Shown one piece after another: positions 6,218-24,826 of a stretch of DNA of 64,000 nt (the stretch's first letter is position 1; each line of letters starts with the position of its first letter). Below the pieces are notes generated by a model. The model was given only the letters and a program-made list of their open reading frames with translations. It was not told where the DNA came from and did not search any database. The stretch is from NCBI RefSeq assembly GCF_900101785.1, contig NZ_LT629688.1, positions 3,410,001 to 3,474,000 of the forward strand, read 5' to 3'. Source of the stretch: Auraticoccus monumenti (GTDB lineage Bacteria > Actinomycetota > Actinomycetes > Propionibacteriales > Propionibacteriaceae). The position numbers and the translations under genes were made by a program.

Positions 6218-8200
6218 CTACGCCCTGCCGGAGGCCGGGCCGGCGTAGCGCAGGGCGTAGACCAGCGCCCAGTCCTGGTCGTTGGCCAGCGGGTCGGCGC
6301 GGTGGGCCGGGGTGCCGTCCACGCAGCTCGGGTAGACGAAGGCGCAGGTCGCTGAGCCGTCCCGGTCGAACGACACCAGGTTGGCGCTCAGGATGTCGGT
6401 GCCGACCCTGCGCAGGGCTGCTGTCTGGTCCTCGGGAAGCAGGCCCGCGGGCCAGTCGAGGAACACACCCGCGCTGAGGACGGACCAGTAGTGGGGGAAG
6501 ACGTCGCCCCAGAGCCGGTCACCGCCGAACCAGAAACCGTCCCAGTGCCGGATCGGTATGTGACGGAGCCGGACGTCGGGCTGGTCAGCGGCGAAGGCCT
6601 GCAGCCAGCCCAGCCGTCGGCGAAGAGCATCCGCTGGTACCCCGCCAGGGTCCAGGGCATGGGCGGCCAGCAGCACCTCCAGCAGCGGCGCGACCATCGA
6701 CTGCTCGTAGTTCACCTCGTGCCCGGGCAGGTCGGTGCCGAGCTGGAGGAAGGTGGTGGCCTGGTCCAGCAGGTGGTCGGTGAGGGCGGTCGCCTCACGG
6801 GCGCGTCCCAGGTCGCGAAGCCGTGAGGACAGGTCCAGGACCAGCGCCCCGAGGTCGAAGGCGAGGAAGTGGCTGCCGCCGAGTCGGTAGTAGGCGTCCA
6901 TGACGGCCGTCGCCCGATCCACGTCGCCGGCCTCGAGCAGGAAGCGGGCGTACCAGGGGAAGTTGTAGAGCCGGGGATCCCGACGTCCGCTGGTGTCGTC
7001 ACGAACGACCCCGTCGGCTCCCACGACGTGCTCGGTGACGAAGCGCAGGTAGCCCGCGAGCGCCTCGTCGAGGACGTCGGCATCACCCCAGCCGCGGCGC
7101 CGGGCCTGCTGCAGCAGCAGCGCGCTGCCGACCCGTTCCCGGGTGTCGGACCAGTCCGACCAAGCCACACCCACGACGGTCAGCTGCGAGCGGTTGTCGT
7201 AGGGGACGAAGGCGTAGCGACGGCTGTCGGAGCGCTCCAGAGGGCGCTGCCGTTCGACCAGGAAGCGGATCCGGGCCTCCACCAGCTCTCGCAGGGGAGG
7301 GTGCACCAGCGCAGTCAGCCGGGCGCGGCGCCCGTTGCGCTCGGCCTCGACGTGCACGACACCAGGGCGTTCGGTGCAGAGCGGCAGGGGTGTGGTGGAC
7401 GTCCACCCGTCGGCGAGGCGCACCGGGAGGTCCCCGCCGACCTCGACGGCCAGCTGGTCGGCGTCGAGGGGCTGTTCACGAGCGGCGGTGAAGGCGGCCA
7501 GGTCGTCGTACCAGGCCAGCTCCCAGCCCAGCCGCAGCGTCTGTCCGGGGGCGAGCTCGATGACCGGCTGTCCGCCCATCGCGTGCGGAGCGCGGGCGTG
7601 GTCGGTGACGTGCAGGAACACGTGCCCGCGCACGTTGCTGCCGGTGTGGGTGTCGCGGGAGCTGATGGAGTAGGCCCACAGCTCCCCCTCGGTGACTCTC
7701 AGCCCCAGGCCCGGTCCGGCGCCGCTCATCGGTACCGCCCACACCCAGGCGTCGGACCCGCCGGTGTGGATGTGGGCGTGGACGGCGTGCTCGAGGCAGT
7801 CCCGGGCTGAGCCGTACAGGTCACGCCAGGGGGTGCTGATCGCGAGCGAACCCACCCGCAGCGGCATCCCTCCCTCGTTGGTCAGCTCGTACGTCTCCCG
7901 CGCACGCTCTCCGAAGCGGCGGCTGCTGCGCAGCACCGCCTGCCCCAGGTGGTGGACCACGTCGACGCCGTCGTCACGCCACTCCACCGAGGAGGGGTGG
8001 TCGAAGCGCCAGCCGCGCGCGTCGAGCACGGCGAAGCCCTTGCCCCAGCGGAAGGCCCCGTCGTGCAGCTGGCCCTCGACGCCTGGCGCATCCTCGACGA
8101 GGAGGACGCTGTGGTCGCTGCCGGGTCGACGGACGGCGGTCACCGAGCCGTCAGCGGCGACCTCCGCCGTGCCGGCGCCGAGCGCGAACTTCCTCGTCAT
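6218..8200 (-). CDS. Putative six-hairpin glycosidase-like protein (660 aa)
   Basis: A large cytoplasmic-looking protein without signal peptide. The first about 330 residues are beta-rich (repeated short aromatic/Gly strands, e.g. FRWGKGFAVLDARGWRFDHP). The C-terminal 330 residues are helical with aromatic/acidic motifs (YNFPWYARFLLEAGD, HEVNYEQSMVAP, HWDGFWFGGDRLWGDVFPHY), which resembles an (alpha/alpha)6 catalytic barrel of glycoside hydrolases or polysaccharide lyases. I do not recognise a specific GH/PL number, and catalytic residues are a guess (Glu/Asp in the WDGFWFGGDRLWGD region). It stands alone, with no transporter nearby. Confidence 0.6.
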   Translation of the reverse strand: MTRKFALGAGTAEVAADGSVTAVRRPGSDHSVLLVEDAPGVEGQLHDGAFRWGKGFAVLDARGWRFDHPSSVEWRDDGVDVVHHLGQAVLRSSRRFGERARETYELTNEGGMPLRVGSLAISTPWRDLYGSARDCLEHAVHAHIHTGGSDAWVWAVPMSGAGPGLGLRVTEGELWAYSISSRDTHTGSNVRGHVFLHVTDHARAPHAMGGQPVIELAPGQTLRLGWELAWYDDLAAFTAAREQPLDADQLAVEVGGDLPVRLADGWTSTTPLPLCTERPGVVHVEAERNGRRARLTALVHPPLRELVEARIRFLVERQRPLERSDSRRYAFVPYDNRSQLTVVGVAWSDWSDTRERVGSALLLQQARRRGWGDADVLDEALAGYLRFVTEHVVGADGVVRDDTSGRRDPRLYNFPWYARFLLEAGDVDRATAVMDAYYRLGGSHFLAFDLGALVLDLSSRLRDLGRAREATALTDHLLDQATTFLQLGTDLPGHEVNYEQSMVAPLLEVLLAAHALDPGGVPADALRRRLGWLQAFAADQPDVRLRHIPIRHWDGFWFGGDRLWGDVFPHYWSVLSAGVFLDWPAGLLPEDQTAALRRVGTDILSANLVSFDRDGSATCAFVYPSCVDGTPAHRADPLANDQDWALVYALRYAGPASGRA

Positions 8201-8448: not shown

Positions 8449-9903
8449 TCATGCTGGGGTGAGCGCGTCGGCACGCCCCGGCTCGTAGCCCGCGGGCCGG
8501 GCGCGCTCCATGCGCTCGAGCTGGCCGAGGGCGACCGCACGGGCGCGGTCGGTTCCGATGTCGGCGATGCTCAGGGTCACCGGCCCCGGGGTGGTGTCGA
8601 CGTGGACCGTGGCCAGGTCGAGGCGCCGCTGCAGCGGTCCGCGGGTGATCCGCACCGACTGCGTCTTGGCGTGCGGGACCACCGACATGGTGTCGACCAG
8701 CCATCCGCGGCGGGTCACCACGACCCGGTCGTCCCAGCCGTGCCGCAGCGTCCACCAGCTCGACCACCGGACCCAGCGCGAGCTGCGCGGCGAGGGGTGC
8801 AGCTCGACGGCGTCCAGGTCGACGTCGGGCAGGATCGCCCGCAGCCCGGTCCGCAGCTGCTCCAGGGTGGCCACCGGGAGCAGGAGCGAGCTGCTGGCCT
8901 GCTGCGCGGTCTCCTGCGCGCTCCTGGTCTGGCCCAGGACGTCGATGCGCACGCGGTAGAGCCCGAGAGGCCGCCAGAGGAGCGACTGGGTGATGGAGAT
9001 GCCCTGGATGCGGTCGACGGGGAGGGACTGGCTGGTCAGGTCGGTGAGACCCCGGGTGATCTCCAGGGCGGCCCCGGAGCGGGCCAGGGTGTAGCTGAAC
9101 TGGCTGATCAGGTACTTGCCGAGGGCGCTGGCCACGCCGATGAGGAGCGGGATGACGGCGGGGAGGGCGTACCTGGCCACGTCGAGCACGGTGGTCACGC
9201 CGAGGCCCACGACGAGCAGGAGCGCCGGCACGAGGAACTCCCCCGTCAGCAGGAACCCCTGCACGAGCTGCCTGGAGGAGAGGCGGACCAGCACCTCGTC
9301 GGCGCCGGTCGCGTCGGTCCCGGTGCTCAGCGGTCCGGTCCCGTCCCCGGTGCTGGGCTGCTCGCCGTCGGCGCGGGCGAGCAGGTGGTCCCTGAGCCGG
9401 GAGGCCTGGTCGCGCTCGAGGTAGCGCAACCTGGTGCCGGAGTCGCCCGGACCCGCCTGCAACCGCATCTCGACGAGGCCGACGATGCGGGCCGCCAGGG
9501 GGTGGACGACGTCGATGGTCTGGAGACGCTGGAAGGGGATGCGCTTGGACTGCCGAAAGACCGCCCCGGTCTCGATCCGCAGCTCGTCGTCGTCGATCAC
9601 GAAACGGGTGAAGCGCCAGGTCATGAAGCCGGCCAGGGCGGACACCACCACGACGACGGCGACCCCCAGCAGCACCCAGCGCCACGAGCCGGCGAGGTTG
9701 GAGAGGAAGGAGTCGTCGCTGCCGTCGGGGACGAGCTGCCGGACGGCCCCGACCACGATGGCCACCAGGACGACCCAGCCTCGGATCAGCGGGGTGAGGG
9801 GGTGCGGGCGCTCGAAGATCGTGCCGTCGGCCGTCCCCCTGAGGACGTCGGCCGGCGTGGCCGGCGGCGGCTGGCCACCTCCGCTCCCGCCGGGACTACT
9901 CAC
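8449..9903 (-). CDS. PH (bPH2/YdbT-like) domain membrane protein (484 aa)
   Basis: Contains several DUF304/bPH2 repeats: the first around FTRFVIDDDELRIETGAVFR, SKRIPFQRLQTIDVVHPLAA and IVGLVEMRLQAG (about residues 75-130), then further copies with LPVDRIQGISITQSLLWRPL and TRRGWLVDTMSVVPHAKTQS. TM pairs separate them. The organisation matches B. subtilis YdbT. Its start overlaps the stop of the YdbS-like gene (ATGA). Some YdbS/YdbT pairs are linked to resistance against antimicrobial peptides; the role here is not shown. Confidence 0.85.
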   Translation of the reverse strand: MSSPGGSGGGQPPPATPADVLRGTADGTIFERPHPLTPLIRGWVVLVAIVVGAVRQLVPDGSDDSFLSNLAGSWRWVLLGVAVVVVVSALAGFMTWRFTRFVIDDDELRIETGAVFRQSKRIPFQRLQTIDVVHPLAARIVGLVEMRLQAGPGDSGTRLRYLERDQASRLRDHLLARADGEQPSTGDGTGPLSTGTDATGADEVLVRLSSRQLVQGFLLTGEFLVPALLLVVGLGVTTVLDVARYALPAVIPLLIGVASALGKYLISQFSYTLARSGAALEITRGLTDLTSQSLPVDRIQGISITQSLLWRPLGLYRVRIDVLGQTRSAQETAQQASSSLLLPVATLEQLRTGLRAILPDVDLDAVELHPSPRSSRWVRWSSWWTLRHGWDDRVVVTRRGWLVDTMSVVPHAKTQSVRITRGPLQRRLDLATVHVDTTPGPVTLSIADIGTDRARAVALGQLERMERARPAGYEPGRADALTPA

Positions 9904-10391
9904 AGCCCGGACAGCCTTGCCTCGGCCCGCCGGGACAGCTGGTCACGCAGCCGGGTGGCCTCGGCGGCCGGCAGGCCCGGGATGGTGGCGTCGGTGCTCG
10001 CGCTGGCCGTGACCAGCTTGACCGTGGCCATCCCGAGGCTGCGCTCCAGCGGGCCGGAGGTGACGTCGACCACCTGCATCCGCCCGTACGGCACCACCGT
10101 CAGCGCGCGGAACATGACGCCGTGGGTGATGTACAGGTCGTCGTCCAGCTCGGCGTAGCCCCAGTTGCGCCAGCGGCGACCGACCAGCGCGACGCTGAGG
10201 ACCAGGATGACGCCGAACACGGCCCACAGGAGGGCCCCGATCCACCAGAGGTCGGTGAGGAACCCCACCAGCAGGGCCGGGACGGTCGGCACCAGCGCGC
10301 AGGCGGTGGTGGTCCCGATCAGCTGGAGGGTCCTCCAGCGCGGGGAGATCGGCTGCCAGCTGGCGCCCGGCGGGGCGAAGAGCTCATCCAC
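9900..10391 (-). CDS. PH domain membrane protein (YdbS-like, 163 aa)
   Basis: Two TM helices (about residues 25-70) followed by one bPH2 domain: YAELDDDLYITHGVMFRALT, VVPYGRMQVVDVTSGPLERS, LGMATVKLVTAS. This is the single-domain partner usually encoded next to the larger YdbT-like protein, here with a 4-bp overlap. Start ATG at 10391, with no strong Shine-Dalgarno seen. Confidence 0.85.
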   Translation of the reverse strand: MDELFAPPGASWQPISPRWRTLQLIGTTTACALVPTVPALLVGFLTDLWWIGALLWAVFGVILVLSVALVGRRWRNWGYAELDDDLYITHGVMFRALTVVPYGRMQVVDVTSGPLERSLGMATVKLVTASASTDATIPGLPAAEATRLRDQLSRRAEARLSGL

Positions 10392-10550
10392 GTGCGACCA
10401 GCGGTCCCTTCTCGTCTCCGGTTCCCCGTACCGGGCGCCCGTGGGGCCCGTACCTCGCCGTGGCGACCGAGGTCGGGGCGCCGACGGGCGTGGGCGGGAC
10501 GGCCCGGTGGGCGCTGGGGAGGAGGATCACCAGCGACCTGCTCGACGGGG

Positions 10551-12551
10551 TCACCGTTCTCCGGCTGGGGGGACCGGCGAGGTCACCCAGACCGACGGCG
10601 GGAGTGCCGCGTCCAGGGTCGCCTCGTTCCCAGGGCCCGCGCGGCGGCCACCGAGGTGCTCGACCAGGTGGTGCTCGATGGCGCGGTGCAGCAGGATCTG
10701 GTTCGCCGGGTTGTCGAAGCCGTGACCCTCGTCGGCGGCGAGGATGTACTCGACGGGGACCCCGCGCTCCCTCAGCGGGGTGACGATGTTGTCGGACTCG
10801 GCCTGCACCACCCGGGCGTCGTTGGCACCCTGGGCGACCAGCAGCGGCGTCCTGATCCGGTCGATCATCGAGATCGGCGACCGTGATCGCATGTCCTCGA
10901 CATCGGCGGGGACCTCCGGGTCGCCGACGTACCGGTACCAGCTGTTGGCCATGTAGGGCCTGGTGAACGGCGGCAGCGACTGCATGAAGTTGGCCAGGTC
11001 TGACACCCCGACGTAGTCCACTGCCGCGGCGAACCGATCAGGAGCCAGGGCTGCTCCGACGAGTGCCGCGTACCCGCCGTAGGACCCGCCCATGATGCCC
11101 ACGCGTCGTGGGTCGGCGTACCCCTGCGCCACGGCCCAGTCGACGGCGTCGACGAGGTCGGTGTGCATCGCGCGTGCGAACTCCTTGATCGCGGCGGTGG
11201 TGTGGCGCCGCCCGTAGCCGGTCGAGCCCCGGAAGTTGACCTGCAGCACCGCATGACCCCGGTTGGCCAGGAGCTGCACCTGCGGGTTGTACCCCCAGGT
11301 GTCGTGCATCCAGGGCCCACCGTGCACGAGGAGCACCAGCGGCAGCCCCGCCGGTTCGACGCCCACCGGCAGCGTGAGGAAGGCGTGCAGCGGCAGCCCG
11401 TCGCGAGCTGCGAAGGCGACCCCCTCCATCGGCGCGAGGTCCGCCGGGTCCAGGTGCGGGTAGGGACGGAGCAGGACACGGCTCTCCCCCGTGCTGTGGT
11501 CGTACAGCCAGGTGATCGCGGGATCGCGGTCGTGGACGAACGTCGCCAGCCAGATCCGCTCGGAGCTGTCGGAGTGGAGGGTGCCGAGGACGCCGTCGGA
11601 CAGGCTCGACAGCGCGGCGTACACCTCGGCGAAGCCGTCGTCGAGCACCTCGATACGAGGCCTGTCGCCGATGAAGCGCGCGGCGATCACCGCTCCCGTG
11701 CGGCGGCTGGTGAAGACGACGGGCGGCAGGACCCCGGGGGCCATCGTCCCGAGGATGTCCAGGCTGGAGCCCTCGACGGCCGCGACGACCTCCTCCTCGC
11801 CGGTGTCCCGGTCGATGCGGATCAACCGGAGGTCGTCGGAGTCGCCGTAGGCGCCGACCAGCAGACCGGTCCCGTCGGGGGTGACCAGCTGCGGCTGCAC
11901 TCCCCCCGGGTGCTCGGCACCACCCAGGCGTCGCAGGTGCGTGCGCTCGCCGGTACGGGGATCGATCGCCGACAGCTCGATGGTGCCGTCCGCGTCGATG
12001 CGGGTGGAGAACGCCGGCGACCCGTCCTGGTCGAGCAGGACGTTCTCGGTCGGGTCCGTCTGCTCGTGGTGGAGGGTCGTCTCGCCGGTGGCCACGTCGA
12101 TGCGGAACAGGTCGATCGCGGCGGGCCGCTTGTTCATCGCGACCAGCATGCTGCCCGGGTGCGAGGGCAACGGGTCGGCACCGAAGACCCGCGACCCGGG
12201 CGGCAACGGCGTGAGGTCGACCGCAGGGTCGTCCGGTGCGTGGGGGTCGACCCGGTACAGGTGCGCGTCCTCGTTGCCGTCGGTGTCCTGTGAGTACAGC
12301 AGCCAGCGCGAGTCCTCGCTCCAGTGGTAGCTGGTGATGCCTCGCCGGTCGTCGTGGGTGACGCAGACCGCGTCGACGTGCTCCTCCTCGACCCCTCGCA
12401 CCCAGACGTTGCGTCGTCCGTGGGCCGGTGCCAGGTACGCGATCCGCGTCCCGTCCGGTGAGATCGACGGGTTGGAGAACACCGGGTCGGAGAAGAGCTC
12501 CTCGACGTCGATCAGCCGGGGTAGGAGCTCGTGGTTCGAAGCGGTCCGCAT
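10551..12551 (-). CDS. Prolyl oligopeptidase family S9 peptidase (666 aa)
   Basis: An N-terminal beta-propeller (about residues 1-400; NPSISPDGTRIAYLAP at its start) precedes an alpha/beta-hydrolase catalytic domain. The nucleophile motif is GGSYGGYAA (Ser near residue 490), the Asp lies in GANDARV (near 590) and the His in ADEGHGFD (near 620). No signal peptide, so probably a cytosolic acyl-aminoacyl or dipeptidyl peptidase. I chose ATG 12551 because GGAG lies 6 nt upstream and homology begins there; an open frame continues upstream. A near-consensus sigma-70-type promoter with an operator-like sequence lies about 130 bp upstream. Confidence 0.9.
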   Translation of the reverse strand: MRTASNHELLPRLIDVEELFSDPVFSNPSISPDGTRIAYLAPAHGRRNVWVRGVEEEHVDAVCVTHDDRRGITSYHWSEDSRWLLYSQDTDGNEDAHLYRVDPHAPDDPAVDLTPLPPGSRVFGADPLPSHPGSMLVAMNKRPAAIDLFRIDVATGETTLHHEQTDPTENVLLDQDGSPAFSTRIDADGTIELSAIDPRTGERTHLRRLGGAEHPGGVQPQLVTPDGTGLLVGAYGDSDDLRLIRIDRDTGEEEVVAAVEGSSLDILGTMAPGVLPPVVFTSRRTGAVIAARFIGDRPRIEVLDDGFAEVYAALSSLSDGVLGTLHSDSSERIWLATFVHDRDPAITWLYDHSTGESRVLLRPYPHLDPADLAPMEGVAFAARDGLPLHAFLTLPVGVEPAGLPLVLLVHGGPWMHDTWGYNPQVQLLANRGHAVLQVNFRGSTGYGRRHTTAAIKEFARAMHTDLVDAVDWAVAQGYADPRRVGIMGGSYGGYAALVGAALAPDRFAAAVDYVGVSDLANFMQSLPPFTRPYMANSWYRYVGDPEVPADVEDMRSRSPISMIDRIRTPLLVAQGANDARVVQAESDNIVTPLRERGVPVEYILAADEGHGFDNPANQILLHRAIEHHLVEHLGGRRAGPGNEATLDAALPPSVWVTSPVPPAGER

Positions 12552-18829: not shown

Positions 18830-20050
18830 GTGACACGCCGAATGACGACAGCCGTCCGCAACCCCTCCGCCGCGCTCCCCTTCTGGGCGTGGTGCACGGT
18901 CGCGGTGTTCTGCACCGCGCTCTACACCACCGCGGTCCCGGTCACCACCGACGCCTACGACCTGGGCGTGCTGGTGGCCCTGGCCGTGGTGACCGTGCAG
19001 TGCGGCTCGCTCGTCCTCGCCGTCCCCCGCCCGCTCACCGGGACCGCGCTGCAGCTGGCGTCGGTCGTCGCGCTCGCTCTCGTCACCCGTGACTCGGGCA
19101 ACGCGACGTGGCCGCTCCCCGTGACCGGCTTCCTCTCGCTCGGCGCGCTGATCCTGCTGCTGGGCCTCCGTGAGCGGTGGTACGTCTCCCTCAGCACGTG
19201 GTGGCTGAGCATCGTGGTCCTCGCCGCGGTGGTCGTCAGCTCCCCCGAGCGGTACGCGGTGCCCGACGAGTGGGGCACCAACCTGACCGTCTACGCCGGC
19301 TCCACCGCGATGCTGCTGATCGCGGCGATCGCCCTGGGTCAGCGGCACCGCATCCGTGCCGACCTGGAACGGGCGCGACGCGACGTCGAGCTCGAGCAGG
19401 CCCAGCGTCTCTACGTCGAGGAGCGCGCACGGATCGCCCGCGAGCTGCACGACGTCGTCGCGCACAGCATGTCCCTGATCCACATGCAGGCGCTGTCGGC
19501 GCCCTTCCGGCTGAGGGCCGCGGAGTCGTCCGCGGTCGACCAGGAGTTCGAGGACATCGCCCGCTCGGCCCGCGGCGCGCTCGACGAGATGCGCCAGCTC
19601 CTTGGCGCGCTGAGGTCCGAGGACGACGACCCCGACCTGGTCCCCCAGCCCCAGCTGGCCGACATCGACGACCTCGTCACGAGCACCTCCCGCGCGGGTA
19701 TCCCGGTCGAGGTCGAGCTCGACCCGCGGGCCGGCACCGCGAGCCCGATCGTCCAGCTGACCATCTACCGCATCGTGCAGGAGGCGCTCAGCAACGTCGT
19801 CCGGCACGCACCGGGCGCTGCGACCACCATCGACGTGTCCGTGGCCAGCGGATCGTTCCGCGTCTCGGTGCGCAACGCCCGGGCCCCGAGTACGTCGCAC
19901 CCCCGGACGCTCCCGACGCCTGACCGGGGCGGTGCGGGCCTGCGCGGGATGCGGGAACGCGTCGGCCTCCTCGGCGGACAGCTGTCGACGGGACCGGCCG
20001 ACGCCGGAGGATTCCTCGTCGACGCGACCATCCCCTCGACCGACCAATGA
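18830..20050 (+). CDS. Two-component sensor histidine kinase, HisKA_3 type (406 aa)
   Basis: The N-terminal half contains about five TM segments (residues 13-160). A linker coiled coil (RARRDVELEQAQRLYVEERA) leads into the H-box RIARELHDVVAHSMSLI (His near residue 206). The HATPase domain has the N-box YRIVQEALSNVVRHAPG (near 312) and the G-box RGGAGLRGMRERVGLLGGQL (near 365). GTG 18830 follows GGAGAGG by 11 nt; ATG 18842 is an alternative. It overlaps or abuts the cognate response-regulator gene. Confidence 0.92.
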   Translation: MTRRMTTAVRNPSAALPFWAWCTVAVFCTALYTTAVPVTTDAYDLGVLVALAVVTVQCGSLVLAVPRPLTGTALQLASVVALALVTRDSGNATWPLPVTGFLSLGALILLLGLRERWYVSLSTWWLSIVVLAAVVVSSPERYAVPDEWGTNLTVYAGSTAMLLIAAIALGQRHRIRADLERARRDVELEQAQRLYVEERARIARELHDVVAHSMSLIHMQALSAPFRLRAAESSAVDQEFEDIARSARGALDEMRQLLGALRSEDDDPDLVPQPQLADIDDLVTSTSRAGIPVEVELDPRAGTASPIVQLTIYRIVQEALSNVVRHAPGAATTIDVSVASGSFRVSVRNARAPSTSHPRTLPTPDRGGAGLRGMRERVGLLGGQLSTGPADAGGFLVDATIPSTDQ

Positions 20051-20061
20051 CCGGAGCCCCG

Positions 20062-20736
20062 ATGCCCACCCGAGTTCTCATCGTCGACGACCAGCCGATG
20101 TTCCGCATCGGCATGTCCGCCATCCTCGGCGCCGAGGACGACATCACCGTCGTCGGTCAGGCCGGTGACGGCGCCGAGGCGCTGGAGCGGAACCGCGCGC
20201 TCCGACCCGACGTCGTCCTGATGGACGTGCGGATGCCGAGGATGAACGGCATCGACGCCACCCGCCAGCTCACCCGACCGGCGGGGACCGCCCACGTCCC
20301 CAGGGTCCTCATGCTGACCACCTTCGACGTCGACGACTACGTCTACGCAGCCCTCGAGGCCGGCGCCAGCGGGTTCCTGCTCAAGGACGCCGACGCCCCC
20401 GAGCTCACCGCCGCCGTCCGCGTCGTCGCCCAGGGAGACTCGCTCCTGTCCCCACGCGTCACCCGCCGGCTGATCGAGAACTTCGTCGCCAGCAGACCCC
20501 CGGGCCTGACGTCGACGACGGTGTTCAACAGCCTCACCGAGCGCGAGCGCGAGGTGTTCCAGCTGATCGCCACCGGACGGTCCAACACCGAGATCGCCGG
20601 CGAGCTGTACATGGCCGAGCAGACCGCGAAGAGCCACGTCAGCCGCATCCTCACCAAGCTCCACCTGCGCGACCGGATCCACGCCGTGATGCTGGCCTAC
20701 GAGACCGGTCTGGTCACACCCGGTTCGCCACGCTGA
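20062..20736 (+). CDS. NarL/LuxR-type response regulator (224 aa)
   Basis: Receiver domain with the acidic pair in VLIVDDQ, phospho-acceptor Asp55 in VVLMDVRMPRMNG, Thr in MLTTFD and Lys in GFLLKDA. The C-terminal LuxR HTH is LTEREREVFQLIATGRSNTE followed by IAGELYMAEQTAKSHVSRIL. I prefer ATG 20062 because GGAG lies 5 nt upstream. ATG 20047, which overlaps the kinase stop, is the alternative. Partner of the kinase encoded upstream. Confidence 0.92.
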   Translation: MPTRVLIVDDQPMFRIGMSAILGAEDDITVVGQAGDGAEALERNRALRPDVVLMDVRMPRMNGIDATRQLTRPAGTAHVPRVLMLTTFDVDDYVYAALEAGASGFLLKDADAPELTAAVRVVAQGDSLLSPRVTRRLIENFVASRPPGLTSTTVFNSLTEREREVFQLIATGRSNTEIAGELYMAEQTAKSHVSRILTKLHLRDRIHAVMLAYETGLVTPGSPR

Positions 20737-20895: not shown

Positions 20896-20960
20896 GTACC
20901 CGCGTACGCGCAGGGATCACCTCGCGGGTGATGCCTCCCCCCTCGTCCCGTTCCTACCGT
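20896..20960 (+). promoter_or_regulatory. Promoter of the FAH-like gene with response-regulator-like box (P3)
   Basis: TACCCGCGTA (20897-20906), GGGTGATG (20926-20933) and -10 TACCGT (20955-20960) repeat the arrangement upstream of the kinase gene: distances to the -10 are 58 and 29 bp here against 59 and 29 bp there. No good -35 is present. Confidence 0.5.
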
Positions 20961-21001
20961 CGGATCACCGCCAAGAGCGGCCCACCCAACGAGGAGCAGA
21001 C

Positions 21002-22288
21002 ATGACCACCATCCCCACCCGCCGGTCCGGGGCCGGATCCCCCACCCGCCGCAACCGGCATCGCCTGACGGTCGCCGGGATCGTCGCGGCCAGCCTCGGC
21101 GTGACGGGCCTCGGGTCCTACGCCGTCCTGCGCACGGCGACCCCGGACTTCCCGCTGGTGTACTCGGAGCGCATCGACGAGGGCGTCACCGAGGCGGTCG
21201 CCATCGCCGACCCCGCCACCGCGCTCACCTTCGCCCGCGTCGACGGCGCCTCCGGGCCGACCGTCCTGGCCGTCACCGGGTACACCGGTGGAGACATCAG
21301 CGGCGTCGACATCAGCGCCGCCACCGGGAACGCGTTCACCGAGCCGATCGCCGCCTTCGACGAGCTGGGCTACGCGGCCCTCGAGGACATCGCCACCGAC
21401 GCCTCCCTGCCGCCAGTCACCGTGGCGGCGTCGGAGGTGCTCACCGCCGTCGACACCCACAAGCGCCACGTCGGCACCGGCACCAACTACCGCGAGCACC
21501 AGGCCGAGTCGACCATCGACGAGCCCTTCCTGTTCCCCAAGGTCGGCGCACTCACCGACTCCGACGAGCCACTGCTGGCCGGGACCTCCGGCCTCCTCGA
21601 CTACGAGGTCGAGCTCGGTGTGGTCGCCCTGGACGACATCACCACCGAGACCGGGACACCGGAGCACATGGGTCTGGTGCTGACCAACGACTGGACCGAC
21701 CGGGAGCTGCTCAGCAGCCAGCTCGAGCCCGACGACCTCACCGCCGGCGCCGGCTTCACCAACGCCAAGAGCCAGCCGGGCTTCTTCAGCACCGGTGACC
21801 TCTTCGTCATCCCCGCCGACTGGCAGACCTACTACCAGGAGCTGGAGCTCGACCTCTTCGTCAACGGCGACCTCCGCCAGCGCGCCGACCCGTCGGACAT
21901 GGTCTGGGACGCCCCCACCCTGATCGAGAAGGTCCTGACCATCGGCGACCGCACCTGGGACAGCGACGGCGTGCAGACTTCGCTCACCGCCGAGCCCGGC
22001 GTCATCACCCGCGGCACCGTCATCCAGAGCGGCACGCCCGAAGGCGTGATCCACCGCGCCCCCGACACCCGTCAGCGGGTCCTCGGCTTCATGGAGTACG
22101 CCGGCAGCCTCGGCACCAACGCCGACTCCGTCGTCGACTCCGCCCTCCAGGTGTACGTCCGCGAGGCCCACGAGGCGGGGGTGTACTTGAAGCCGGGCGA
22201 CGAGATCGTCACCCGCTCGGAGGGTCTCGGGCAGATCTTCACCCCCATCGTCCCCGGCGAGCGGTCCGAGTCCGAGGACCTGGGCTGA
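21002..22288 (+). CDS. Membrane-anchored fumarylacetoacetate hydrolase (FAH)-like protein (428 aa)
   Basis: A basic N-terminus is followed by one TM helix or signal anchor (about residues 24-43, LTVAGIVAASLGVTGLGSYA). The rest resembles the FAH fold: VGTGTNYREHQAE, then FLFPKVG, the metal-ligand region LLDYEVELGVVAL, and a C-terminal VITRGTVIQSGTPEGVIHRA. FAH enzymes are normally cytosolic C-C hydrolases or decarboxylases; a predicted extracytoplasmic one is unusual. Gene order and shared promoter elements suggest control by the adjacent two-component system. Substrate unknown. Confidence 0.8.
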   Translation: MTTIPTRRSGAGSPTRRNRHRLTVAGIVAASLGVTGLGSYAVLRTATPDFPLVYSERIDEGVTEAVAIADPATALTFARVDGASGPTVLAVTGYTGGDISGVDISAATGNAFTEPIAAFDELGYAALEDIATDASLPPVTVAASEVLTAVDTHKRHVGTGTNYREHQAESTIDEPFLFPKVGALTDSDEPLLAGTSGLLDYEVELGVVALDDITTETGTPEHMGLVLTNDWTDRELLSSQLEPDDLTAGAGFTNAKSQPGFFSTGDLFVIPADWQTYYQELELDLFVNGDLRQRADPSDMVWDAPTLIEKVLTIGDRTWDSDGVQTSLTAEPGVITRGTVIQSGTPEGVIHRAPDTRQRVLGFMEYAGSLGTNADSVVDSALQVYVREAHEAGVYLKPGDEIVTRSEGLGQIFTPIVPGERSESEDLG

Positions 22289-22325
22289 GCCGGCCCGCTG
22301 GCCGGCGGTGACTGTCGGGCCGGCT
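22288..22325 (+). terminator. Terminator hairpin after the FAH-like gene
   Basis: AGCCGGCCCG pairs perfectly with CGGGCCGGCT (10 bp, 18-nt loop), starting at the last base of the stop codon. No T-tract. Confidence 0.55.
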
Positions 22326-22673
22326 GGGGGTGTCGCCCCGGCCGGCCCGATCACCGCATCCACCCTGCCGACGTCAGAGCGCCACTGGTACCGGGGCGGA
22401 CCGCGGTGGGGCTCGTTCGCCATCGGGGCCTACTACGGCGGGGCCGCGGTCGGGCCGCTCGTGCGGAGCGCTGCTCTCAGCACCTGAGGTCTCCAGCCTG
22501 GTGACCAACGCGGCCCCCGGAGGGCATGGCCGCGCACCCCTCTCGATCACTCGAATCCCGGGTCACGGCCTGCTCGAGCTGTTCACCACCATGGCCGGCG
22601 GGGCCTGCAACCCCAGGCCCGGGTGCATGGGCGACCACCTGACGTTCGGCAGCCGCGCGCCAGCACGTGCCGC
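22326..22673. other. Gene-free stretch
   Basis: I see no convincing gene, RNA or repeat. Reading frames are short and unlike the coding regions around them. It may contain decayed sequence. Confidence 0.45.
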
Positions 22674-23273
22674 TCAGCTCCCGGAGTGGGTTGGCAACAG
22701 CTGAGCCGCCAGTGATCGTGCTGTGGCGGTGAGCGTGGCCGTGTCCATCCCGGTCCTGCTCATGTACACGATCCCCTGTTGCGCAGCCAGCAGGGCACGT
22801 GCCAGTGACACCGGATCCGCGTGGGCCGGTAGATCGCCCTGGTCCTGGGCGCGAGAGACGCAGTCGGCGATCAGCGTCGTGGATCGCTCGTAGGTGTCGT
22901 GGGCGTGGCTGAGGACGTCCGGATCGGCGTTGCCCAGCTCGGACGTGCTGTTGGCGAGCATGCAGCCGCGTCGGGCACCGGACCCGGTCCCCTCACCGAC
23001 CGGCGCTTCGAGCAGCATGCGGAGAGCGTCGACGGCGCGGGGGGTCTCGGTGAGGGCTCGCCGGAGCTGGTGGTGGATGTCCTCGGTGTAGCTGCGCAGC
23101 GCCCGCAGGAAGAGCTGACGCTTGTCGCCGAACGCCGCGTAGAGGCTGCCCTTGCCCAGCCCGGTGACCCGCATCAGGTCCTCCATCGAGGTCGCGGCGT
23201 ACCCGGTGTCCCAGAACTGCTCCCGGACAGTGTCGAGGACCTGCACCTCGTCGAATGCTCGTGGTCGTGCCAT
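22674..23273 (-). CDS. TetR/AcrR family regulator (199 aa)
   Basis: HTH: MARPRAFDEVQVLDTVREQF, TSMEDLMRVTGLGKGSLYAA, FGDKRQLFLRAL. The C-terminal domain matches the TetR_C_11-like type (GCMLANSTSELGNADPDVL, with Cys and Asn in the usual places), seen in regulators of short-chain dehydrogenases. ATG 23273 chosen at the conserved MARPR start. Divergent from an SDR gene, with a 20-bp inverted repeat between them containing both TTGACC -35-like elements. Confidence 0.9.
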   Translation of the reverse strand: MARPRAFDEVQVLDTVREQFWDTGYAATSMEDLMRVTGLGKGSLYAAFGDKRQLFLRALRSYTEDIHHQLRRALTETPRAVDALRMLLEAPVGEGTGSGARRGCMLANSTSELGNADPDVLSHAHDTYERSTTLIADCVSRAQDQGDLPAHADPVSLARALLAAQQGIVYMSRTGMDTATLTATARSLAAQLLPTHSGS

Positions 23274-23288
23274 GGCTCCAGGATACGC

Positions 23289-23341
23289 GTTCTTGACCGT
23301 ACGGTCCATCAAGTCCTATGGTGGACCGGACGGTCAAGAAC
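23289..23341. promoter_or_regulatory. TetR operator: 20-bp inverted repeat between the TetR and SDR genes
   Basis: Left arm GTTCTTGACCGTACGGTCCA (23289-23308) and right arm TGGACCGGACGGTCAAGAAC (23322-23341) differ by one base when reverse-complemented, with 13 bp between. Each arm holds an imperfect or perfect GACCG(T)ACGGTC palindrome and a TTGACC that can act as a -35, so repressor binding would block both divergent promoters. Confidence 0.7.
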
Positions 23342-23374
23342 GCCGTTGCTCATCGAGATGGAAGCAGGCAGGAC

Positions 23375-24121
23375 ATGGGAAAGCTGGATGGCAAGGTGGC
23401 GATCGTCACGGGCGGATCGCGGGGGATCGGGGCGGCAACGGCGCTGGCGCTGGCCGAAGAGGGAGCCGACGTCGCGATCAGCTACTCGTCCTCGGAGGAT
23501 CAGGCGAAGGCCGTGGTCGCCGAGCTCGAGGCCAAGGGGGTGCGTGCGGCAGCCTTCCGCGCTGACCAGGCGGATGCGACGGAGGCGGCAGGGCTCATCC
23601 GCAGCGTGGTCCAGCAGTTCGGCCGACTCGACGTCCTGGTCAACAACGCAGGCTTCACCGCCGCTGCCCCGATCGACAGCGAGGACGTCGACGTGCCTGC
23701 CCTCGACCGCCAGCTCGCGGTCAACTACACCGGCGTCGCGGCAGCGATCAGGGAGGCGTTCCCGCTGCTGCCGGACGGTGGGCGGATCGTGAGCATCAGC
23801 ACCGGCGCAGCGACGCGGACGGGCTTCCCGGGGATGGCCGACTACGCAGCCTCCAAGGCGGCCCTCGAGGGCTACAGCCGGGGCGCGGCCCGTGACCTGG
23901 CCCACCGGGGGATCACCGTCAACGTGATCCAGGTCGGGTTCATCGACACCGAGATGAACCCCGCCGACGGTCCGGCCGCCTCCATGTTCCTCCCCACCAC
24001 AGCCATGGGGCGCTACGGCAGGCCGGAGGAGGTGGCCGCAGGCGTCGTCTTCCTGGCCAGCCCGCAGGCGTCCTACGTCACCGGCACGGTGCTGAGGATC
24101 GACGGCGGATACAGCGCCTAG
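23375..24121 (+). CDS. SDR family NAD(P)-dependent oxidoreductase (248 aa)
   Basis: Classical SDR: cofactor motif TGGSRGIGAATAL (residues about 12-24), NNAG near 91, catalytic Ser in ISTGAATRTG and Tyr/Lys in YAASKAA (about 156-160), and a C-terminal VTGTVLRIDGGYSA. AGGCAGG precedes ATG 23375. This is a 3-oxoacyl-ACP-reductase/glucose-dehydrogenase-like enzyme of unknown substrate, repressed presumably by the divergent TetR protein and co-transcribed with the DsbA-like gene. Confidence 0.9.
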   Translation: MGKLDGKVAIVTGGSRGIGAATALALAEEGADVAISYSSSEDQAKAVVAELEAKGVRAAAFRADQADATEAAGLIRSVVQQFGRLDVLVNNAGFTAAAPIDSEDVDVPALDRQLAVNYTGVAAAIREAFPLLPDGGRIVSISTGAATRTGFPGMADYAASKAALEGYSRGAARDLAHRGITVNVIQVGFIDTEMNPADGPAASMFLPTTAMGRYGRPEEVAAGVVFLASPQASYVTGTVLRIDGGYSA

Positions 24122-24166
24122 CCCGACCGTGCCACTGAGAAGCAGTCGAGAGAGACGAGACACGAC

Positions 24167-24826
24167 ATGACCGAGTCACCCATCGCAGTCGACATCTGGA
24201 TCGACTTCGTGTGCCCCTTCTCCTACATCGCGACCGCACGGATGCAGGCAGCCGCCGCCCGGGTAGCAGCCCCCGTCGACGTCGCGTACCACTCGTTCCA
24301 GCTGATGCCGGACCTCCCCGAGGACTACGAGGCCAGCAATGCCGAGTTCTTCCGCGACCACCGCGGGATACCGCCGGAGGAGCTCGAGCAGAGGAGCCAG
24401 CCGCTGGTCCAGATGACGGCCGGAGCGGGACTGCCCTACCGTCTTGCAGACATCCAGCAGGCCAGCACCCTGAAGGCCCATCAGCTCCTGCACCACGCCA
24501 AGGCCCGTGGCCGGCAGGTCGACGCGGCAGCAGCTCTGTATCGCGCCCACTTCGCCGAGGGCCGACACATCGGCCGCCTTGGCGTCGTCCTCGACATCGC
24601 CGGACAGCTGGGCCTCGACCGGGCCGACGTCGAGCGGTCACTGGTGTCTGAGCAGCACCTTGGGGACGTGCGGGCAGACACCGACCGTGCGGCGCAGCTG
24701 GGCATCCAGGTCGTGCCGTTCTTCGTCTTCGACGAGGCCTACAGCCTGTCCGGGGCGCAGGAGATCGAGACGCTCGTCGACGTCCTCACGCGGATGGGCA
24801 ACGGGGCCAGCACGGCACGCGCCTGA
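24167..24826 (+). CDS. DsbA family (FrnE-like) oxidoreductase (219 aa)
   Basis: Thioredoxin fold with a DsbA helical insertion. The N-terminal active-site region is DFVCPFSYIATARM, so the usual CxxC is CPFS, retaining only the first cysteine. The cis-Pro loop is VVPFFVFDEAYSLSGAQEIE. FrnE and 2-hydroxychromene-2-carboxylate isomerase-like proteins share this pattern; many act as glutathione- or thiol-dependent isomerases. No signal peptide, so cytosolic. It lies 45 bp after the SDR gene and is probably in its operon. Confidence 0.88.
   Translation: MTESPIAVDIWIDFVCPFSYIATARMQAAAARVAAPVDVAYHSFQLMPDLPEDYEASNAEFFRDHRGIPPEELEQRSQPLVQMTAGAGLPYRLADIQQASTLKAHQLLHHAKARGRQVDAAAALYRAHFAEGRHIGRLGVVLDIAGQLGLDRADVERSLVSEQHLGDVRADTDRAAQLGIQVVPFFVFDEAYSLSGAQEIETLVDVLTRMGNGASTARA

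Follow-up and report, generated by a model that had tools for sequence, protein, structure and literature searches.

The window, which is the whole 64-kb stretch of DNA analyzed here, carries at positions 21002 to 22288 of the forward strand an open reading frame for a 428-aa protein of the fumarylacetoacetate hydrolase (FAH) type that is predicted to be exported. The original prediction gave these coordinates exactly and described a basic N terminus followed by a hydrophobic stretch; the sequence has both, with a net charge of +6 over aa 1 to 23 (21002 to 21070) and a candidate export or anchor segment, recognized by Kyte-Doolittle hydropathy, at aa 24 to 42 (21071 to 21127). The single Pfam family found in the protein is PF01557 (FAA_hydrolase; E value, 5e-20; 72.5 bits against a cutoff of 23.9), and the catalytic domain was placed at aa 156 to 416 (21467 to 22249) from this match and from the fold match of a model of aa 148 to 428. 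Full-length relatives are encoded on two alphaproteobacterial plasmids, a megaplasmid of Ruegeria sp. TM1040 (35% identity) and a plasmid of Rhizobium sp. ACO-34A (31% identity). The same genome has four further FAH-domain genes (G000:C1:3573046, 2724765, 453877, and 1204340).

The ATG at 21002 is preceded, at a distance of 5 nt, by the ribosome-binding site GAGGAG (20991 to 20996). The first 150 codons contain no second ATG, and in-frame GTG codons are found at positions 34, 53, 141, and 146; codon 34 falls within the hydrophobic segment itself, and neither it nor codon 53 has a clear ribosome-binding site. Third-position GC was 0.96 in codons 1 to 45 and 0.97 in the remaining codons, so the N terminus reads as coding sequence. 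Start codons, ribosome-binding sites, and codon bias thus offered no plausible cytosolic start downstream of the hydrophobic segment, and the N terminus is most likely translated as read from the ATG at 21002. An antisense open reading frame of 489 aa (20954 to 22423, reverse strand) overlaps the gene and is most likely a by-product of the high third-position GC content.

Upstream of the FAH gene lie a HisKA_3 sensor histidine kinase (18830 to 20050, forward strand; Pfam) and a NarL/LuxR-type response regulator (20047 to 20736, forward strand; open reading frame and Pfam) that ends 265 bp before the FAH start. Across 22 other genomes from the family of the window organism, nothing close to the adjoining kinase was found (best match, 143 bits, compared to 867 bits for its self-match), and the window genome contains 17 kinase matches. 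Downstream, at 22674 to 24823, we noted a divergent TetR (reverse)/short-chain dehydrogenase (SDR; forward) pair followed by a DsbA-like protein. The TetR and the SDR (23384 to 24118) were 26% and 30% identical, respectively, to counterparts beside relatives of the FAH gene, perhaps a generic similarity only. No RNA elements were found between 17000 and 27000. About 65 bp 5′ of the FAH start is an inverted repeat, AGGGATCACC-N5-GGTGATGCCT (20912 to 20936), that is a candidate operator. A shared operator or regulon was considered and rejected, since the motif ATCACCN5GGTGATGC has one other exact copy in the genome, within what looks like a coding region. When up to two mismatches were allowed, the motif gave 385 genome matches (171 plus 214), compared to 19 for a reversed control; this excess may reflect codon usage, and the surroundings of six of the 385 near matches were looked at.

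The protein belongs to a distinct set of FAH-type sequences. We assembled 16 readable members, consisting of the window protein, L037 (the Ruegeria megaplasmid), L038 (the Rhizobium plasmid), L068, and 12 of 13 newly found loci; L141 is cut by a contig end, and L144 was left out for an in-frame TAG, which makes 17 loci in total. The L144 gene (7933 to 9000, reverse strand) is close to that of L145 and, with its one in-frame TAG, is possibly a decayed copy or the product of a sequencing error. When 26 sequences were placed in a tree, a branch supported at 100/100 separated the 16 members from 10 ordinary FAH proteins. An earlier tree likewise separated four members from 38 other FAH rows at 100/100; the earlier tree carries a caution about meeting long branches that the 26-sequence tree lacks, and it included L107, a duplicate of the window gene that is the source of the “2 changes” in it. 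Within the subfamily, the window protein grouped with L137, L138, L139, L140, L142, and L143 at 95/90 and with these plus L146 at 92/88. Members also differ from ordinary FAH proteins in spacing: the distance from GxN to GTxxG was 179 to 190 residues in the 15 measurable members, compared to 164 to 168 in the 9 measurable ordinary proteins, and 71 to 85 residues follow GTxxG, compared to 36 to 45, with the exception of L146, which has 42. In the window protein, alignment places one subfamily insert of ~18 residues at aa 316 to 333 (21947 to 22000) and a second of ~40 residues at aa 355 to 394 (22064 to 22183), modeled as two helices; the second is missing from L146. The annotation of the two members from named species reads just “fumarylacetoacetate hydrolase family protein” for one and “hypothetical protein” for the other, and their predicted exported location thus appears to have been overlooked.

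Known FAH-type enzymes are cytosolic or mitochondrial. In the window protein, the segment has a mean hydropathy of 1.63 over 19 residues behind the net charge of +6. Shuffling the first 60 residues matched this value in 132 of 10,000 trials, and shuffling the whole protein matched it at any place in 811 of 2,000, such that the segment of this one protein, taken alone, would be a weak predictor of export. It becomes convincing because a hydrophobic segment is conserved near the N terminus in all 16 members compared. In 14 of the 16, no 15-residue stretch of the protein is more hydrophobic than the N-terminal one; the exceptions are L038 and L137, where a stretch elsewhere is slightly more hydrophobic. 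Fifteen members have a 15-residue window of at least 1.65 within the first 60 residues; in the other, L038, the segment lies at residues 52 to 70 with a hydropathy of 1.44. For 10 ordinary FAH proteins with starts chosen by us, the best such window reached at most 1.53, and 74 to 96 residues precede the GxN[FY]xxH motif, compared to 112 to 177 in the 16 members. When stop-to-stop frames were used as a control, 1 of 28 other FAH frames (L029) had a stretch of equal hydrophobicity equally far upstream, and the likely start of that gene, with its ribosome-binding site, falls after the stretch. By eye, the segment ends like a cleavable signal peptide in many relatives, with A-x-A-like sequences (ARA, AMA, ASA, and AAA), and a possible cleavage site follows SYA (aa 39 to 41) in the window protein. 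The positive charge ahead of the segment predicts an N-in/C-out orientation. The Tat consensus is S/T-R-R-x-F-L-K, and the sequence TRRNRHRL of the window protein, also judged by eye, lacks the hydrophobic positions of that motif. The window protein thus has the three traits of the subfamily, namely, the N-terminal hydrophobic segment, the position in the clade, and a Leu/Met replacement in the active site that is described below.

The catalytic apparatus appears to be complete. The catalytic center of human FAHD1 as listed in PMC7056447 consists of G24, R25, H30, E33, K47, E71, E73, D102, Q109, and K123, and the aligned residues of the window protein are, in the same order, G160, T161, H166, E169, K180, E202, E204, D230, L237, and K256. 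G160, H166, and E169 lie in the motif GTNYREHQAE (aa 160 to 169; 21479 to 21508), the metal ligands E202 and E204 are encoded at 21605 to 21613, D230 is encoded at 21689 to 21691, and the catalytic lysine K256 is encoded at 21767 to 21769. The glutamates of YEVELG, in which the original prediction had sought the metal ligands, do align with FAH metal ligands; the metal site, E202, E204, and D230 included, is intact in the window protein and kept in all 16 members. H30, E33, K47, E71, E73, D102, and K123 of FAHD1 were conserved throughout the 16, as was R106, a residue absent from the catalytic-center list in PMC7056447, and the G24 equivalent was kept in 15. Two positions differ. Thr stands at the R25 position in 14 of 16 members, and the position of Q109, a residue said in the account of the mechanism in PMC12176266 to stabilize substrate conformation, is occupied by Leu in 15 members and by Met in the other. 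The window protein, with L237 and T161, therefore lacks the Gln109 and Arg25 residues of FAHD1-type decarboxylases. Since Gln109 is replaced in every member and Arg25 is also replaced, a substrate other than oxaloacetate is argued for; the alignment suggests that the chemistry is likely intact and that the substrate is likely different from that of FAHD1.

A model of residues 148 to 428 (mean pLDDT, 61.6; pTM, 0.65) aligned with FAHD1 (6fog_E) with a Z score of 21.3 and a root mean square deviation of 2.9 over 203 residues and with YisK with a Z score of 21.0. These scores come from the second of two models only, the first having had a mean pLDDT of 47; the models were built on six sequences, among which the window protein was the sole subfamily member, and gave no trustworthy structure for the N-terminal 147 residues. 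The predicted FAH fold thus rests on a model of middling quality together with the Pfam match. Compared to FAHD1 (an acylpyruvase/oxaloacetate decarboxylase; PDB 6fog), with which it has in common the fold and E71, E73, D102, H30, E33, K47, and K123, the window protein adds the putative export segment, 159 residues before GxN, and the inserts of ~18 and ~40 residues and has Leu for Gln109 and Thr for Arg25; FAHD1 itself is mitochondrial. L-2,4-Diketo-3-deoxyrhamnonate hydrolase (PDB 8gsr; NCBIfam NF053535), whose substrate, judged from its name, is a 2,4-diketo acid, was among the best sequence and Foldseek matches, and we know of no export signal in it. The window protein matched four NCBIfam FAH equivalogs and reached the cutoff of none, with scores and cutoffs of 35.1 and 276.4 bits for HpaG C-terminal, 29.9 and 500 for DhyDRhmHlse (NF053535), 25.2 and 201 for YcgM, and 20.2 and 811 for PRK15203. 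Bacillus subtilis YisK (PDB 8sky), 27% identical over 202 aligned residues, has the FAH fold and, to our knowledge, no N-terminal export signal. Oxidized-polyvinyl alcohol (PVA) hydrolase (OPH) has beta-diketone chemistry and presumably belongs to a protein family other than FAH. At most, then, this product of the pva operon works alike, as a hydrolase for oxidized PVA that reference titles in PMC4611681 place in the periplasm.

The surroundings of the gene in relatives fell into three patterns. In L137, L139, L140, L142, L143, and L146, a FAD_binding_3/Rng_hyd_C aromatic-ring hydroxylase, an SDR, a small DUF6640 protein, and the exported FAH-type protein are encoded in one direction with short gaps (for example, L140:4973-9064, L142:4671-8734, and L146:5238-9161). 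This operon is thus shared by L146 and by five of the window protein's six nearest relatives, and the contig of the sixth, L138, starts inside the DUF6640 gene. Pfam calls were made for the hydroxylase and DUF6640 on L140 and for the SDR on L142, and the remaining copies were recognized by tblastn. A TetR-like gene lies upstream in four of the six operon loci (the L142 copy was checked against Pfam). The L146 cluster adds a cytosolic FAH, a maleylacetoacetate-isomerase-like glutathione S-transferase (GST), a carboxymuconolactone-decarboxylase-family protein, and an extradiol-dioxygenase-like protein, a content of the kind expected in aromatic ring degradation; the dioxygenase-like protein, the GST, and the cytosolic FAH all score below the NCBIfam cutoffs of named enzymes. 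In L143, an ANTAR-type response regulator and then an NMT1-like protein are encoded directly 3′ of the exported FAH gene (8934 to 10663), and a hybrid kinase and a sigma-54-type regulator are encoded ~4 kb upstream. A search of open-license papers gave no match for DUF6640.

In the second pattern, a MipA outer-membrane-type gene is found near the exported FAH gene (L037:7094-9089, L038:6400-11617, and L134:4865-9101), with two-component genes adjoining in two of the three loci and at a distance of ~3 kb in L037. In L038, a gene for a small acyl carrier protein (7171 to 7404) lies between the response regulator and exported FAH genes. The third pattern is mixed, with a major facilitator superfamily (MFS) transporter and TetR in L136 and L141; a P450 and a Rieske protein in L135; an SDR, a zinc dehydrogenase, and a methyltransferase in L145; and an ammonium transporter, TetR, and an aquaporin in L068. 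Several of the loci of relatives are cut by contig ends. The window copy does not share the hydroxylase-SDR-DUF6640 operon. A tblastn search over the 64-kb window found no relative of DUF6640 or of the hydroxylase and just the 30% identical SDR at 23384 to 24118; its pathway context is thus borrowed from another bacterial group, and its transfer to the window protein is our inference.

Full-length relatives were absent from 295 genomes of the phylum of the window, its own genome excluded (three pass 1e-15 over 153 to 208 residues only), from 295 genomes of its class, again excluding its own (best match, 3e-11), and from 56 relatives of the window genome, including one of the same genus (best match, 6e-11). 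In the class of G1207, presumed to be Alphaproteobacteria, 14 of 385 genomes had a relative (E values of 3e-58 to 3e-186), a count that includes a genome of the family of G679 and whose strongest match was a sequence already in the query alignment. The family of G679 gave a full-length relative in 1 of 394 genomes, and the phylum of G612 gave none in 398 genomes at 1e-18. From 4 to 6 candidates were scored per genome in the clade searches and up to 31 were scored per genome in the search of the 56 relatives. A scan of genome contigs returned only one weak ordinary FAH, and DNA synteny with three relatives was limited to scattered matches, many of them to the regulator. The distribution of the subfamily is patchy in the presumed Alphaproteobacteria and beyond, and horizontal transfer into the lineage of the window, taken to be actinobacterial from its high GC content and its kin, is the simplest reading, although the base composition shows full adaptation. 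A phage origin was rejected: searching 50,697 phage records with the Ruegeria protein gave no match, and the subfamily queries had no viral-contig relative.

We consider it probable, with appreciable room for doubt, that the protein is an exported, metal-dependent C-C hydrolase acting on small acylpyruvate- or beta-diketone-like compounds; the analysis itself shows the N-terminal segment and its conservation, the fold, the retained residues, and the operon of the relatives, while export, catalysis, substrate, and anchoring are all inferred. The N-terminal signal or anchor would carry the FAH-fold enzyme across the cytoplasmic membrane, and the enzyme, either remaining anchored or being released, would act outside. 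Because the metal site (E202, E204, and D230), the H166-E169 pair, K180, and K256 are kept, hydrolysis of a metal-bound diketone is expected: the metal would bind a 2-oxo or beta-dicarbonyl compound, and the neighboring C-C bond would be hydrolyzed, as it is by cytosolic acylpyruvases and diketone hydrolases. In the operon clade, the compound may derive from, or feed, the hydroxylase pathway. Since the gene is the last of the hydroxylase-SDR-DUF6640 operon in the nearest relatives, its likely role is to break down or detoxify a small diketone that is polyketide-like or derived from an aromatic compound. Several observations count against this picture, among them the weakness of the window protein's own segment, the quality of the models, and the missing hydroxylase and DUF6640 genes within the 64 kb. 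In addition, the neighbors of other members differ (MipA with two-component genes, MFS with TetR, or P450 and Rieske), and the partner enzymes of the operon look cytosolic, so an exported FAH-type protein misfits a simple linear pathway.

The original prediction had also raised a sensor-like function, which in its specific form would make the protein an extracytoplasmic ligand-binding or accessory protein that reports a diketone or 2-oxo acid to the adjoining kinase. This reading keeps a small probability because two-component genes adjoin the FAH gene in the window, where the response regulator ends 265 bp upstream, and in L038 and L134, where a response regulator and kinase flank the gene and a response regulator-kinase pair is convergent with it, respectively. 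L037, which like L038 and L134 has MipA nearby, carries a PAS kinase and regulators ~3 kb from the gene, and L143 has its ANTAR regulator directly downstream as well as the more distant hybrid kinase and sigma-54-type regulator. However, the window neighbors are ordinary HisKA_3 and NarL/LuxR-type proteins of a kind that is common (17 kinase matches in this genome), the kinases beside other members belong to a different family (HisKA), and what the nearest relatives share is a catabolic-looking operon and not a kinase. Moreover, a protein that did nothing but bind a ligand would have no need of the catalytic residues, all of which are kept. Judged by the gene order of the 17 loci, we do not favor a sensor-like role and regard it as unlikely.

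We think it less likely still that the protein is an exported, envelope-linked oxaloacetate decarboxylase or tautomerase of the FAHD1 or B. subtilis YisK kind. An envelope protein, MipA, is encoded near some members, and FAHD1 and YisK are among the best-aligned solved folds (Z scores of 21.3 and 21.0); YisK is reported, in PMC10825186, to be linked to the cell envelope and to act in peptidoglycan envelope remodeling. Against this, all 16 members have Leu or Met at the Gln109 position, and 14 have Thr at the Arg25 position. Oxaloacetate, moreover, is mainly a cytosolic metabolite. A further reading, that of a cytosolic FAH whose hydrophobic N terminus is an artefact or a membrane tether facing the cytosol, would agree with the location of known FAH enzymes and with the weakness of the segment taken alone; we give it very little credence, since the charge distribution predicts N-in/C-out, many relatives show an apparent cleavable signal peptide with an A-x-A-like end, and the start site and codon bias favor the long form. 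By contrast, an extracytoplasmic FAH-type hydrolase of a new type, as first proposed for this gene, is supported by the sequence comparisons and above all by the conservation of the N-terminal segment in all 16 members.

The fold and the chemistry of such proteins are already known; the conserved exported branch, the replacement of Gln109, and the operon were not found in the open-license literature. No title or opening abstract listed there describes an exported FAH branch. An FAH of Ruegeria pomeroyi (AAV95689), which may or may not be of this branch, appears in an exoproteome table (PMC5839243). A wider reading, which we hold tentatively and with some inclination to doubt, is that these proteins form a dispersed and unrecognized FAH branch that acts beyond the cytoplasmic membrane, providing the exported part of an operon for the degradation of aromatics or diketones, and that an unrelated high-GC bacterium acquired it from alphaproteobacteria. 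If this is true, the C-C bonds of diketones would be hydrolyzed in the periplasm or at the cell surface. An exported branch that is conserved and keeps its active site would put metal-dependent C-C hydrolysis outside the membrane, and it would offer a way into both DUF6640 and a degradation operon that has no name so far.
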